A stretch of DNA of 64,000 nt, from assembly GCF_000195595.1 (NCBI RefSeq), contig NZ_GL882536.1, positions 1,280 through 65,279 of the forward strand. Reading direction: 5' to 3'. The notes below the pieces were generated by a model that saw only the letters and a program-made list of their open reading frames with translations, was not told the DNA's origin and did not search any database. Shown in pieces: positions 8,802 to 13,922 of the stretch. A program made the position numbers and the translations under genes. Source of the DNA: Actinomyces sp. oral taxon 170 str. F0386. Its GTDB lineage: Bacteria; Actinomycetota; Actinomycetes; Actinomycetales; Actinomycetaceae. The first letter of the stretch is position 1. Each line of letters opens with the position of its first letter.

Positions 8802-10262
8802 TCAGGTAGCCCGGCCGCTAAGCCCCAGGTCCTGCTCATGAGCATCAAGCCCCCACGACAGGCCGTGACGCCACCAGGCGTAGTCGTGCCCGCCACGCTC
8901 CTCACGATACTCGAGCAGTGCCCCTTCGGCCGCGAGAAGCTCCGAGACCGCGCGAGCCCCCTGACGCAGGCCGCCCTCATGCACGCCGCACTGAACCACC
9001 AGTCGCGCCTCCAGCCCATCACCACCCTGTGAAGGCCGGCTTTTCTTCGGACGCTGCAGGCCCCGGGCCTCGGAGCGGTGGCGCAACCAGCTCACCAACT
9101 CCCCCTCACCCTCTCCTCGGCGCTCCGAGCCAAGCCAGAAGGAGCCGGACTGGACAATGGCACGGGCGGCCAGCTCGGGATGATGCAGAACGAGGTCGGC
9201 TGCGGCAACCCCTCCCAAGGACTGCCCGGCCACCACGATCCGATCCGGGCGCCACATGCAATCACCACCGTCCTCAGACGAGGCGGCAATCATGCGGCCC
9301 TGACCGCAGACCGCCCGTCGTGCCGCCTGCAGGCAACTGCGGAGCAGGTCTCTGCTGCGTCGCGGGTCCGCCAGGTCGCGTGTGCGCATCGCCAGGCTGC
9401 CGGAGTCGATGAGGAGCAGATCCCAGTGACAGGACCTGGGAGCCAGGTGGTCGACGGCGTCGTTACCGCGCCAGATGTTGCCGTCGAGCAGGATCAGCAG
9501 ACCGCGCTCACACCGCCTGCCGGAGGATCCCGGGACACGATCCCCGCACCACAGCGTGACTCGGCGCCCGGCATCGCCTGGCGCATCAAAACCTCTGAGA
9601 GCCTCATCCTCCAGGTCGAACCGGATGCCGTACCCGTGCTCACCACGGCTACGTATCGATATCGGGCCTGCCAGGGTCTCCGGAGCCGTCATCCAGTCCG
9701 GGTGCAGCACGGCCCTGGGGCCCTGCCACATCGAGGAGACGAGGCCGAAGCCGTCGTGCAGACGGTCGGAGTTGAAGGGATCCGCCCGCCCCTGGGCGTG
9801 AACGCGCCTCCAGCACTCGCGCCGGGCGCCGGCGTCGTCAGGGAGCGGGTCACGGGTCACGACGGTCCGGTAGCCCAGGAGAGCATCCTGGGGCAGCAGG
9901 ACGTGAAGCGCCCACCAGCTGGTTCCGGGAACCCGGGCGGCGAGCGCCGGAGCGATGTGGGTGCGATGGTTGTCCGTCAGGGTGTTGAGATGGATGAGAA
10001 CGCTGGGACTGGCGCCGTGCTGCTGGTCATCGCGCCACAGGAAGGTCGCCTCCACCATGTCGACCCCATCGACGACGTACGTGTCTCCTAGGACAGGCGT
10101 ACCAGAGGCTGCAACGGCCGCCAGGTCGGTATCGTCGGGAGCAGGCGGCCACCACGCCGGGGTGGTGCGAAGCGGGCCACCGTCCTGGGTCACAGGAGTT
10201 GGAACCAGCTGTCTCCACCGTGCCTGTGGCGCAGGCAGCTCGTCGCCACGCACCTCACTCAC
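8802..10262 (-). CDS. enterochelin esterase-like alpha/beta hydrolase
   Basis: A 486-residue protein if it begins at the GTG at 10262; an ATG at 10328 is the alternative, and neither has a clear ribosome-binding site. The N-terminal part (about 50-200) contains VDMVEATFLWRDDQQ and looks like the substrate-gating domain of Fes-type esterases. The C-terminal hydrolase has GRRCERGLLILLDGNIW, the nucleophile elbow GQSLGG (Ser348) and GGHDYAWWRHGL (His459), typical of the esterase D/Fes family. Such enzymes cut ferric catecholate siderophores to release iron in the cytoplasm, and no signal peptide is present. The region before 10262 is highly basic with no domain features, so I excluded it. Substrate specificity is inferred. 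Confidence 0.8.
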   Translation of the reverse strand: MSEVRGDELPAPQARWRQLVPTPVTQDGGPLRTTPAWWPPAPDDTDLAAVAASGTPVLGDTYVVDGVDMVEATFLWRDDQQHGASPSVLIHLNTLTDNHRTHIAPALAARVPGTSWWALHVLLPQDALLGYRTVVTRDPLPDDAGARRECWRRVHAQGRADPFNSDRLHDGFGLVSSMWQGPRAVLHPDWMTAPETLAGPISIRSRGEHGYGIRFDLEDEALRGFDAPGDAGRRVTLWCGDRVPGSSGRRCERGLLILLDGNIWRGNDAVDHLAPRSCHWDLLLIDSGSLAMRTRDLADPRRSRDLLRSCLQAARRAVCGQGRMIAASSEDGGDCMWRPDRIVVAGQSLGGVAAADLVLHHPELAARAIVQSGSFWLGSERRGEGEGELVSWLRHRSEARGLQRPKKSRPSQGGDGLEARLVVQCGVHEGGLRQGARAVSELLAAEGALLEYREERGGHDYAWWRHGLSWGLDAHEQDLGLSGRAT

Positions 10263-10344
10263 GCCGCCGACTCTACAGCGGCCCAGTATCGATTCCACAG
10301 TGATCCGGCGATGGGACGATCCCACCATGAGACGACTGGCAGGC

Positions 10345-10375
10345 TTGCATTGTTCCGGGGAGGGTGGCGTAGGGT
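10345..10375 (+). promoter_or_regulatory. promoter of the leaderless polycysteine ORF
   Basis: TTGCAT (10345-10350) and TAGGGT (10370-10375), spaced 19 nt, lie just ahead of the ATG at 10383. Seven nucleotides separate the -10 box from that ATG, the spacing typical of leaderless mRNAs in actinobacteria. The -35 box is imperfect. Confidence 0.5.
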
Positions 10376-10382
10376 AGCCGTC

Positions 10383-10478
10383 ATGACGCACATCGTTTTT
10401 ACGACCACGACCGCTCCCGGCGCACAGGCGCTCGCGGTCATGTGTGGTGCGCGGATGTGTTGTTGTCGAGCCTGTTGA
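10383..10478 (+). CDS. polycysteine leader peptide (putative cysteine-responsive attenuator ORF)
   Basis: A 31-codon frame that ends MCGARMCCCRAC-stop: five of the last twelve residues are Cys, three of them in a row (codons 10458-10466), all TGT. It has no Shine-Dalgarno site but begins 7 nt after a -10 box, so it is probably translated from the 5' end of a leaderless mRNA. Leaderless short ORFs with consecutive Cys codons upstream of sulfur-assimilation operons are known from mycobacteria, where slow translation at low cysteine opens expression of downstream genes. Here it lies 296 nt before a sulfonate-type ABC transporter operon in the same direction. The peptide itself is unlikely to have a function. 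An internal ATG (10440) would still keep the Cys cluster. Confidence 0.65.
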   Translation: MTHIVFTTTTAPGAQALAVMCGARMCCCRAC

Positions 10479-10774
10479 TTCCTTCCCCTCACCCGGTACT
10501 GGACCGGCCCGGGAGACGCGACGACGCCTCAAAACAGCTCTGACAACGGCCGAGAATAACGATCGGCCACATGACTTCCTGGGTTCCCGTGTCGCCACAT
10601 TTCATTCGTCAGAGCACGGGGGCGCCTTTCTGCAAGCCCTGATGGACTGAGGTTGTTTCCTCACCTGCCCAACTCGCTCCGCTCGGGCTTCTCGTGCTCC
10701 TCCTCCACCGTTTTCAAAGGGATGCTTCAGCATCTTGCGCATCGAGGCTCGTTCCCACCACCACAGGAGAAACC
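10479..10774 (+). promoter_or_regulatory. mRNA leader between polycysteine ORF and transporter operon
   Basis: There is no gene here. The leader can form small hairpins, for example GGCCGA 10548-10553 with TCGGCC 10563-10568. It contains CTCCTCCTCC (10697-10706), which can pair with the ribosome-binding site AGGAGA (10765-10770) of the first transporter gene. This would fit control by masking of the Shine-Dalgarno site; the pairing model is inference. Confidence 0.45.
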
Positions 10775-11953
10775 ATGTCCACGTCCTCGTCCTCTCAGCC
10801 GTCCCAGTCCTCAGACTCCTCGACCTCCGCTCCGTCAGATGCCGAGATCGTGGAGTCTCAGGAGGTCACGGCTGAGAACGCCGCCGCGATTCTGGCAGCC
10901 GATGACGGCATCGATGACCTTGATGCCAATGAGACGGACCGGTCGCATCGTGGCAAGCCGTCACGGCGCACGCTGCTCACGATTGGGGGGCTCGCAGCCG
11001 CTGCCGTGGTCGGTACCGGTGCGTACCTGACGATCCGGCGCGCCAACCAGGGAGTGATCGGGGCCCACGAGGCGCTCCCCCTGGTGATCGGCGGCGACAT
11101 CTGCGCCGCACCGCTGTACGCCGCCTACCACCAGGGCTTTTTCGACGACGCGGGACTGAAGGTCACGCTCGCGCGCACCCAGCAGACCGAGGACACCAAG
11201 GACGGCGTGGGCGCTGGTAAGTACATTGGTGCTCCTGGAATCTTCTTCTCCTGGCTGGAGCCGATCTACAACGGCCTCAACGCCAGGCTCACCGCGGGGC
11301 TCCACGCCGGCTGCCTGCGCCTGGTGGTGGGCAAGGACTCTCCGTATCAGAGCCTGGCTGACCTGAAAGGCGCCACCATCGGCGTGCCGTCACTGTCATC
11401 ATCCGCCTTCGCCTACTTCGCGATCGGACTGTCCGAGGCCGGCATCAACGTCAATCCGGATAGAGGTGACATCACGTGGCGCACAGTCGATGCGGACTCC
11501 TTGGGGACCGCTCTGGCTGACGGTCAGGTGGACGCCGTCATGGGTTCTGACCCCGGACCGCTGCTTCCCGTCTTCAACGGAACGGCCCGTGAGCTGGCCA
11601 ACAACGACGCTGAGGAGTTCTGCTGTTCGGTGGCACTCAACGGGGACTTCGTACGTAAGCAGCCCAAGGAGGCGAAGGCTCTGACCGAGGCATGGTTGAA
11701 GGGCTCGGCCTACGTGCCGGACCACATCGAGGAGATCGCCAAGATCGAGGTCGACAACGACTACGTTGCCGCGGACCAGGACGTCGTCGTCCGGGTGCTC
11801 AAAACATACGGGTTCAAGGCCTCGGCCTCCAGGTTCCGGGCCGCGATCGAGCCCGGCATCGAGAAGTTCAAGGGAACCGGTTTCATCACATCGGACGTCT
11901 CCGCCCGGAAGCTGACCGACACAGTCGTCGCCGACCTCGGCATCAAGGACTGA
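10775..11953 (+). CDS. ABC transporter substrate-binding protein, sulfonate/nitrate/taurine type
   Basis: A 392-residue protein started at the ATG 4 nt after AGGAGA. The first 60 residues are unusual: Ser-rich (STSSSSQPSQSSDSSTSAPS) and then acidic. Next comes PSRRTLL with a hydrophobic segment (about 63-88), a twin-arginine-type or uncleaved membrane anchor. The mature domain has the SsuA/TauA/NMT1 fold signs: LPLVIGGDICAAPLYAAYHQGFFDDAGLKVTL, SLADLKGATIGVP and ALADGQVDAVMGSDPGPLL. It would bind the substrate outside the membrane for the permease and ATPase encoded next. The polycysteine leader ORF upstream points to a sulfur compound (aliphatic sulfonate or taurine); that choice is inference, and no monooxygenase gene is adjacent. 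Confidence 0.85.
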   Translation: MSTSSSSQPSQSSDSSTSAPSDAEIVESQEVTAENAAAILAADDGIDDLDANETDRSHRGKPSRRTLLTIGGLAAAAVVGTGAYLTIRRANQGVIGAHEALPLVIGGDICAAPLYAAYHQGFFDDAGLKVTLARTQQTEDTKDGVGAGKYIGAPGIFFSWLEPIYNGLNARLTAGLHAGCLRLVVGKDSPYQSLADLKGATIGVPSLSSSAFAYFAIGLSEAGINVNPDRGDITWRTVDADSLGTALADGQVDAVMGSDPGPLLPVFNGTARELANNDAEEFCCSVALNGDFVRKQPKEAKALTEAWLKGSAYVPDHIEEIAKIEVDNDYVAADQDVVVRVLKTYGFKASASRFRAAIEPGIEKFKGTGFITSDVSARKLTDTVVADLGIKD

Positions 11954-11959
11954 TTGACG

Positions 11960-13036
11960 ATGCCCACCGAGGTGAGACCCACGACCACATCGACCACATC
12001 CGCCAAGCCCATCGACGACAGGCATCCGCAACCGCCCTCCTCCACAGTCAGGCAGAGTGCACCAAGCGATCGCCGTCCCGACGCAGGCTCTCTTCTGAGC
12101 ACCACGGCACTGTTCCTGTGGCTGGCCTACCTGGTCATCGTCATTGCCCTGCCGGAGGCAGACCTTCTCCGCAAGGGGTCAACCACTCCGGTCACAGTCC
12201 TCGCCGGTACATGGCTGATCGCCCTGATCGCGTGGACACTCACGGCACGGGTCCGACCGGCATCCTCGGCAGCGAGGTCACTGACTCACTTCCTGCCCTG
12301 GATCAATGCCGCCGGCGTATGGTTCATCGTCTGGCAGCTGACGACATCCAAGCTCGGACTGCTCACGCCCCCGTACTTCGCCGCCCCGGAAGTACTCATC
12401 GCCTCCTTCCTGGGTGATTGGAGGCTGCTGCTCAGCTGCCTGGGCGCCTCGGCGCTGCTCTTCATCATCGGGTACACGGCTGGATCGGTGCTGGGGTTCT
12501 TCACAGGCCTGCTCATGGGCTGGTCGAGGCGCGCCGACTACTGGTTCCATCCGCTCCTTCAGACCATCGGCCCGGTTCCTGCGGCCTCGCTCCTTCCACT
12601 GGCGCTGCTGCTGATCCCGACGACGTACGCCTCAGCGGCCTTCATCGTCGGCTTCGGCGCCTGGTTCCCCATGGCGACCATGACCCGCGCGGGCGTACGC
12701 TCCGTACGCCGCGACTACATCGATATGGCCCGCACGCTGGGAGCCGATGAGCTCTTCCTCATCAGACGGGTGGCCGTGCCGTCGGCGCTACCGGACATGC
12801 TCACCGGCCTGTTCACGGGGCTGGGCACCTCGCTCGCCGCCCTCATGACCGCCGAGCTGACCGGAGTCGACAAGGGCCTGGCCTGGTACATCAACTGGGT
12901 CAAGGGCTGGGCGGACTACCCCAGGATGTACGTGGGCCTCATCACTCTGGTGACCTTCTGCCGCACGCTCATGGTCCTCCTGTTCAAGATCCGCTCCTCG
13001 CTGCTGGCATGGCAGCAGAACCTTGTGAGGTGGTGA
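11960..13036 (+). CDS. ABC transporter permease, SsuC/TauC type
   Basis: A 358-residue membrane protein. I used the ATG at 11960; an in-frame TTG at 11954 is closer to AAGGA (11945-11949) and may be the true start. After a Thr/Pro-rich cytoplasmic start come about eight hydrophobic segments: two N-terminal ones (TALFLWLAYLVIVIALP and VLAGTWLIALIAWTL), then the six-helix BPD_transp_1 core. The ATPase-contact loop (EAA motif) reads DYIDMARTLGADELFLIRRVAVPSALP. It starts 6 nt after the binding-protein gene and ends 4 nt before the ATPase gene, a tight operon. It forms the transmembrane channel for the substrate delivered by the binding protein. Confidence 0.88.
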   Translation: MPTEVRPTTTSTTSAKPIDDRHPQPPSSTVRQSAPSDRRPDAGSLLSTTALFLWLAYLVIVIALPEADLLRKGSTTPVTVLAGTWLIALIAWTLTARVRPASSAARSLTHFLPWINAAGVWFIVWQLTTSKLGLLTPPYFAAPEVLIASFLGDWRLLLSCLGASALLFIIGYTAGSVLGFFTGLLMGWSRRADYWFHPLLQTIGPVPAASLLPLALLLIPTTYASAAFIVGFGAWFPMATMTRAGVRSVRRDYIDMARTLGADELFLIRRVAVPSALPDMLTGLFTGLGTSLAALMTAELTGVDKGLAWYINWVKGWADYPRMYVGLITLVTFCRTLMVLLFKIRSSLLAWQQNLVRW

Positions 13037-13040
13037 ACCG

Positions 13041-13922
13041 ATGTCTGCCGGTTCCACGACGGCTGCTGCCACGCCGCGGGTCTCGCCCCCATCCGTCCCC
13101 CGCGGCGCACAGGTCGATCTGACTGGTGTCTCCCACAGCTACCCCTTGTCCCATGACCTGGAGCACGGATGGTTCCATCTGCTGCTGCGCCAGGTCTCCC
13201 CCGCTGCGAGGGCTCGCTATGAGGCAGAGACTGCCAAGCCGGATCAGCTCCCCGTGCTCAATGACATCGACCTGACGGTCGCCCCTGGCGAGTTCGTCTC
13301 GCTGGTGGGGCCGTCCGGGTGCGGCAAGTCAACGATCCTGAGACTGCTGGCCGGGCTGGAGCAGCCTGTCGAGGGCAGCGTCACCGTCGATTCCAAGCAG
13401 GTGACCGGGCCCTCGCCTCTGCGTGCGCTTGCGTTCCAGGACGCCACGCTGCTGCCGTGGAGGACCGTGCGGGACAATGTCGCCCTGGGCCCTGAGGCCA
13501 GAGACCGTATGGAGCGCGACCAGCGCCGGGTGGAGGCCGCCCTGCAGATCGTGGGGCTGCGAGACTTCGCCGACGCCTACCCCGCCACGCTCTCAGGCGG
13601 TATGGCTCAGCGGGCCTCGCTGGCCCGGGCCCTGGTCAACCGGCCCCGGCTCTTCCTCCTGGACGAGCCCCTGGGCAAGCTCGACGCCCTGACACGCCTC
13701 CAGCTCCAGGACGAGATCATCAAGCTGTGGGAGTCCCAGCGCTTCACGGCCGTCCTGGTCACCCACGACGTCGACGAGGCCCTGCGCCTGTCCCACCGAG
13801 TGGTCGTCCTGTCCGAGCGCCCCGCGCGCATCGTCGCCGACATCGAGGTGCCCGAGCACGACGAGTCGAGTGACGAGGTCCGTGAGCTGCGTCGAAAGAT
13901 CCTCGGCCTGCTGGGCCGGTGA
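13041..13922 (+). CDS. ABC transporter ATP-binding protein, SsuB/TauB type
   Basis: A 293-residue ATPase with Walker A GPSGCGKST (90-98), Q-loop AFQDATLLPWRTV (131-143), signature LSGGMAQ (184-190), Walker B LFLLDEP (204-210) and the switch His in THDVDEAL (242). It powers import by the permease. Between the first strand (VDLTGVSHSYP) and the second (LPVLNDIDL) there is an extra segment of about 35 residues (36-70) with HGWFHLLLRQVSPAARARY that normal SsuB proteins lack as far as I know. It is the third and last gene of the transporter operon. Confidence 0.9.
   Translation: MSAGSTTAAATPRVSPPSVPRGAQVDLTGVSHSYPLSHDLEHGWFHLLLRQVSPAARARYEAETAKPDQLPVLNDIDLTVAPGEFVSLVGPSGCGKSTILRLLAGLEQPVEGSVTVDSKQVTGPSPLRALAFQDATLLPWRTVRDNVALGPEARDRMERDQRRVEAALQIVGLRDFADAYPATLSGGMAQRASLARALVNRPRLFLLDEPLGKLDALTRLQLQDEIIKLWESQRFTAVLVTHDVDEALRLSHRVVVLSERPARIVADIEVPEHDESSDEVRELRRKILGLLGR

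Follow-up and report, generated by a model that had tools for sequence, protein, structure and literature searches.

A candidate cysteine-responsive leader with a leaderless Cys-rich ORF upstream of an ABC importer operon in Actinomyces

It is known that in attenuators of the mycobacterial type a structure in the leader RNA hides the downstream ribosome-binding site (RBS) unless a ribosome stalls. Polycysteine leaderless short ORFs of mycobacteria have reportedly been studied experimentally by Canestrari et al. 2020 (Mol Microbiol). The experimental mycobacterial precedent for a Cys-sensing leader is summarised in passages of PMC9031893 and PMC13236596, and Cys-rich uORFs in mycobacteria are noted in passages of a 2015 paper on leaderless mycobacterial transcripts (PMC4633059). 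Passages of PMC1262725 (Seliverstov et al. 2005) describe Cys leader peptides predicted in Mycobacterium, Propionibacterium acnes and Bifidobacterium longum. Actinomyces naeslundii was among the genomes of that study; a Cys leader for this species is absent from the same passages.

We analysed a stretch of 64,000 nt from Actinomyces sp. oral taxon 170 (the window), in which an earlier note had pointed to a leaderless polycysteine ORF before an ABC transporter operon. The note's account of the sequence at 10345-10774 (frame, -10 box, Cys codons, CT-rich stretch and RBS) is exact to the base. The features of the locus are as follows.

10345..10350, + strand: -35-like hexamer TTGCAT, 19 nt upstream of the -10 box
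10370..10375, + strand: -10 box TAGGGT, ending 7 nt before the uORF ATG
10383..10478, + strand: predicted leaderless Cys-rich uORF, 31 codons and TGA, homologous in 28 of 28 operon-bearing genomes
10410..10438, + strand: hairpin within the uORF, immediately upstream of the Cys codons (clade A1 pair probability 0.99 and 0.93)
10443..10475, + strand: putative sensing codons, five Cys codons, all TGT (10443, 10458, 10461, 10464, 10473), read from the sequence
10459..10550, + strand: possible hairpin of the Cys codons and stop (10459-10478) with 10529-10550 (clade A1 probability 0.83-0.89)
10697..10706, + strand: CT-rich stretch CTCCTCCTCC, kept in 5 window-clade leaders, its role unsupported by folding
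10721..10734, + strand: small hairpin GATGC-TTCA-GCATC between the CT-rich stretch and the Shine-Dalgarno (SD) sequence (probability 0.94), with no T run after it
10765..10770, + strand: SD sequence AGGAGA of the transporter, read from the sequence
10775..11953, + strand: ABC substrate-binding protein, NMT1/SsuA-like (PF09084, 1.2e-14; TIGR01728, 69.4 bits against a cut-off of 163.5)
11954..13036, + strand: ABC permease (PF00528, 1.9e-19)
13041..13922, + strand: ABC ATPase (PF00005, 9.6e-34)

Translation of 10383-10478 gives MTHIVFTTTTAPGAQALAVMCGARMCCCRAC (31 codons) followed by the stop. Codons 26-28, at 10458-10466, are Cys codons, with others at 10443-10445 and 10473-10475. As in the mycobacterial polycysteine ORFs described in passages of PMC9031893, PMC9094748 and PMC13236596, the ORF appears leaderless and its Cys codons are clustered, those ORFs standing before sulfur-related genes. 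It differs from them in its genus, in preceding an ABC importer operon and in having, in a sister clade, a covarying partner of the Cys codons, and it is known here from sequence. The leaders in the passages of PMC1262725 are similar as well: short ORFs located before cys operons (before cbs in B. longum), in which runs of Cys codons lie close to the stop. No description of an Actinomyces Cys leader or of the operon was found in the literature among the titles listed. Given the precedents in mycobacteria, the type of control is a known one, while the Actinomyces member and its operon appear undescribed with respect to these titles.

Orthologues of the binding protein (E-value 1e-30 or better) were present in 28 of the 213 genomes searched in the family, all from the window's genus, which has 49 genomes in the set. 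Among ten loci with relatives of this protein nine belong to named Actinomyces: A. oris (two), A. johnsonii, A. naeslundii, A. timonensis, A. denticolens, A. haliotis, A. gaoshouyii and Actinomyces sp. ZJ308; the remaining locus, in a Geopsychrobacter MAG, matched only weakly. By these relatives the window would stand near A. oris. The earlier note had expected Cys codons to be conserved among relatives while the DNA around them drifted, and both expectations were borne out. A Cys-rich short ORF occupies the equivalent place in all 28 genomes having the transporter operon (27 were caught by the Cys-ORF filter; the 28th, L015, was found by reading its sequence), at least three Cys codons are present in 27 of the 28 uORFs, with two in L015, and one Cys column is invariant across the 25 distinct peptides. 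A profile of these 25 peptides matched all 28 operon-bearing genomes at E 1.6e-7 or better; among 30 genomes outside the genus the best match reached only E 0.006. Within codons 2-21 differences at the first, second and third codon positions were equally frequent (0.34, 0.31 and 0.33, respectively; 24 leaders), therefore the N-terminal part is not under ordinary protein selection. In the last eight codons third positions vary more than second ones (0.435 versus 0.283).

Three leaders (L008, L009 and L033) have a uORF of 39 residues, in which seven residues are inserted close to the Cys codons and the N-terminal part differs. Genome G061 matched the profile at 8.6e-7 though its operon is decayed; at this locus (L099, G061:C15:5400-9900) the uORF and the pairing element are kept, the TANNNT box is absent, the binding-protein gene is lost and the permease frame is broken. 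Twelve stretches from weaker profile matches were read, one of which was this decayed operon, and the other 11 were judged not to be leaders. A match in G032 (1.7e-5) was rejected as a leader because it sits inside another frame.

The distance from the TANNNT box to the ATG is 7 nt in 27 of the 28 operon-bearing genomes (6 nt in L013); as the filter admitted gaps of 5-9 nt, the constant spacing is a result and not an input. All nine leaders of clades A1 and A2, the window's included, have TTGCAT at a distance of 19 nt from the -10 box, and a TTG-type hexamer is found 17-20 nt upstream of the box in 17 of the 28 leaders tabulated. A sigma-70 scan of 10200-10900 returned no promoter; the generic consensus demands a spacer of 16-18 nt, versus 19 nt here.

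TGT accounts for all five Cys codons of the uORF, although it is in the minority, with 3 of 16 Cys codons, in six genes of the window; it makes up 91 of the 127 Cys codons over 28 leaders (27 operon-bearing and the decayed L099). With a leaderless-like ORF defined as TANNNT, a gap of 5-9 nt and an ATG opening a frame of 10-60 aa, both strands of the 64-kb window contain four such ORFs, of which only 10383-10478 has at least three Cys among its last 12 residues; no leaderless-like ORF with a Cys-rich end was found in 51 further selected loci (175,339 bp). Two tRNAs were the only Rfam elements at gathering score in the window, with no match for the leader. The divergent frame beside the leader (8802-10598, minus strand) encodes an enterochelin-esterase-like hydrolase (PF11806, PF00756).

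A second Cys-rich uORF, MMAATVMRAMSVMPLCRCCRCR, was observed ∼240 nt upstream of cysK in the same genome. It has a Shine-Dalgarno sequence and is therefore not leaderless. The cysK gene is present in 48 of the 49 genomes of the genus, and a short ORF with at least three Cys precedes it in 29 of the 30 genus loci examined; the thirtieth (L161) has two Cys. The cysK leader is possibly another cysteine attenuator, built differently, and two operons with Cys-rich leader ORFs would fit what is expected of a cysteine-sensed regulon. In the printed stretches of the cysK leaders (L132, which is G000:C37, and L133-L161) a conserved TAGRGCGCC..GGCC follows the uORF, and a hairpin-like repeat GTGCGCG/CGCGCA also lies downstream of it. 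When 8 of the 11 PALP and Cys/Met PLP loci of the genome were inspected for other Cys uORFs, only cysK was convincing; two Cys-containing frames were seen near L122. A genome-wide scan for TGYTGYTGY (G000) was uninformative, with 277 matches versus 1006 for the reversed control.

For analysis of RNA structure the leaders were grouped by eye into A1 (five, with the window), A2 (four), C (three) and B, the sister clade (15); L021 was left out downstream. A significant downstream complement (core CCTG[AG]CAG) to the uORF end (core CTGTCAGG) exists in 14 of the 15 B leaders, significance meaning a score above 95% of shuffles, which L019 misses with p 0.098. It lies 46-112 nt upstream of the transporter's start codon, the value for L011 being approximate. 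Only one of the 12 leaders of groups A and C has a significant complement of the Cys segment, and in clade C (three leaders, the 39-residue variant) no pairing was significant. The B-type leaders have one helix of 13 pairs between the uORF end and the complement and another of six pairs between the nucleotides just past the stop and those just past the complement; both are paired in 90.6% of cells (16 B-type leaders, that is 15 and the decayed L099; 14 distinct rows). The covariation score was 0.143 versus 0.087 in shuffles, none of 500 being as high, and at most 0.086 when the pieces were slid; these pieces were hand-chosen, three of them by alignment and not by the automatic rule, and relatedness inflates such scores. 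Two-sided changes were observed at five pairs (16 of 500 shuffles were equally high). At one covarying pair the third base of an Ala codon varies synonymously, and 11 of the 14 rows pair there (8 GC, 2 UA and 1 AU). Considered leader by leader, the six-pair helix scored below 0.05 in none of the 16 leaders, and an upstream control block often scored equally.

Together the two helices would possibly make an H-type pseudoknot. In this respect the leader resembles the LEU element of leuA, in which, according to passages of PMC1262725, the codons with a regulatory role engage in long-range pairing and a pseudoknot is possible; the LEU element concerns leucine and its codon run pairs with the Shine-Dalgarno box, whereas such pairing was not seen in Actinomyces. 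In the mycobacterial Cys leaders no conserved hairpins are reported in passages of the same paper, unlike the sister-clade pairing described here. The uORFC-8-2 motif before cysS of Rhodobacterales (passages of PMC8632094) likewise has a uORF with tandem Cys codons in a stem; that motif finishes with a run of U resembling an intrinsic terminator, of which none was found around the Actinomyces leader (10200-10900). One could speculate, though we think it rather unlikely, that the genus has a cysteine regulon sensed by ribosomes, that in the sister clade the Cys codons form a strand of a pseudoknot unpicked by the stalled ribosome, and that the partner has moved within the genus, from near the RBS in the sister clade to just behind the stop in the window's clade.

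In the window's own leader a hairpin within the uORF pairs 10410-10414 with 10434-10438 and 10419-10423 with 10428-10432; across 24 leaders (19 distinct rows, leaving aside clade C, L021 and L099) 91.1% of its cells are paired. Its covariation exceeded that of all 500 shuffles, but five of the six two-sided changes fall at one pair, and two other measures did not stand out (189 and 329 of 500 shuffles reached them). For the possible hairpin of the Cys codons the fold of the window has a z of -2.06, and in the window's clade neither pair counts nor covariation were better than in shuffles. Local folds of this hairpin beat shuffles in the window and in L006 (6 and 2 of 200 as good), were marginal in L031 (11 of 200) and were no better than shuffles in L003, L007 and L032. 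The pairing element in this clade ends >220 nt before the transporter ATG. With regard to RNA structure, then, the evidence is good in the sister clade but weak in the window's own leader.

Downstream of the leader the genes are ordered binding protein, permease and ATPase. The earlier note had called this transporter sulfonate-type; the label is not supported, given that the likeness to the SsuA family lies below the curated cut-off. TauD gave no match in the window's genome, and the three luciferase-like proteins encoded there match other subfamilies only (E up to 1e-10) and no sulfonate monooxygenase model; sulfonate use therefore lacks support. A search of solved structures with the binding protein returned one weak match (E 0.012), useless with respect to substrate. 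It is likely, solely because of the Cys-rich leader, that the cargo is some sulfur compound.

Comparison at the level of sequence demonstrates the ORF, its promoter spacing, the Cys codons and the second Cys-rich uORF on cysK. The leader is probably a ribosome-mediated, cysteine-responsive attenuator that is ON when Cys-tRNA is short. RNA polymerase would start at the ATG of the leaderless ORF, as the conserved promoter spacing suggests. With charged Cys-tRNA in short supply, the translating ribosome would slow where the Cys codons cluster close to the stop and block their RNA from pairing with a downstream element of the leader, and the importer genes would be expressed, allowing uptake of a sulfur compound. 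With enough cysteine the ribosome would depart, the Cys-codon RNA would pair and expression would drop, if the sign of the response is as we infer. This reading, by a wide margin the strongest, is favoured by the presence of the ORF in every operon-bearing genome, the nearly constant gap, the conserved Cys codons, the drifting N-terminus, the covariation in clade B, the uORF of cysK, the experimental precedent in mycobacteria and the still recognisable ORF in the decayed L099. Counting against it are the inconsistent SD opening energies (see below), the pairing in the window's clade that is no better than in shuffles, the distance of >220 nt between its pairing element and the ATG, and the mere two Cys codons of L015. 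The candidate attenuator of the earlier note has thus fared well with regard to conservation and to the Cys-rich uORF of cysK; its proposed output step has not.

As to that step, we prefer translation of the transporter, to which we give about an even chance; Rho-dependent termination is a more doubtful alternative. The earlier note had the CT-rich stretch at 10697-10706 mask the Shine-Dalgarno sequence. The leaders of the window's clade retain this stretch, its CTCC is by eye complementary to GGAG, and opening the SD of the window's own leader becomes cheaper, from 6.1 to 3.9-4.0 kcal/mol, when a stalled ribosome covers the uORF; but an equal drop (4.0) follows with the ribosome at the stop, and in near relatives (L002, L003 and L004) the cost moves in the opposite direction. 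Over 25 leaders (L011, L015 and L021 excluded; nested folds, which do not cover pseudoknots) the mean SD opening cost did not drop on stalling: it was 5.2 kcal/mol for the free leader, 5.4-5.5 with the ribosome stalled at the Cys codons and 5.6 with it at the stop. For a wider RBS region around the start codon the means were 9.5, 9.2-9.1 and 9.1, respectively, a small shift in the expected direction; there the cost drops on stalling in L014 (14.8 to 10.0) and L019 (13.2 to 8.8). In L017 the opening cost rises (8.3 to 10.4). Moreover, the clade consensus fold pairs the SD with a different segment, and the sister-clade leaders L011, L013, L014 and L019 are, by eye, C-rich past the pairing element but have no CTCC stretch there. 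With opening energies so inconsistent across leaders, these nested folds give masking by the CT-rich stretch no consistent support, and we hold it to be improbable. If Rho acted instead, ample cysteine would let the ribosome leave at the stop, the untranslated C-rich leader would bind Rho and transcription would end early; at low cysteine the stalled ribosome would shield the first part of the Rho site. C exceeds G in all 28 leaders tabulated, as would suit this explanation. The C excess of the window's leader (0.118) is matched by just 4.1% of 296-nt windows on both strands, no intrinsic terminator (GC-rich hairpin and T run) was found in 10200-10900, and Rho is proposed for mycobacterial cys leaders in passages of PMC1262725, where the prediction is called rather weak. 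Still, composition alone cannot call Rho sites, and Rho alone does not account for the sister-clade element complementary to the Cys codons.

A different view of the ORF is that it encodes a small Cys-rich protein, with a metal or redox role, as the first gene of the operon. Conservation of Cys and the greater variation at third than at second positions in the last eight codons would agree with this; however, codons 2-21 show no third-position excess, RNA pairing accounts for part of the conservation of the uORF, and no extra copy of it was found besides that in the decayed operon of G061, so that we hold a protein function to be very unlikely. Any lone short ORF may arise by chance, but conservation in 28 of 28 genomes with a nearly fixed promoter spacing, along with the lack of such an ORF in 175 kb of other loci, strongly disfavours this, and a functionless chance ORF is hardly credible.

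With the leader read as a cysteine-responsive attenuator, ribosome-sensed cysteine control would reach beyond mycobacteria to Actinomyces, an actinobacterial genus of the human mouth, and an importer of unassigned cargo would become tied to the need for cysteine. The 28 natural variants of the leader offer material for testing whether the output step works through access to the RBS or through Rho.
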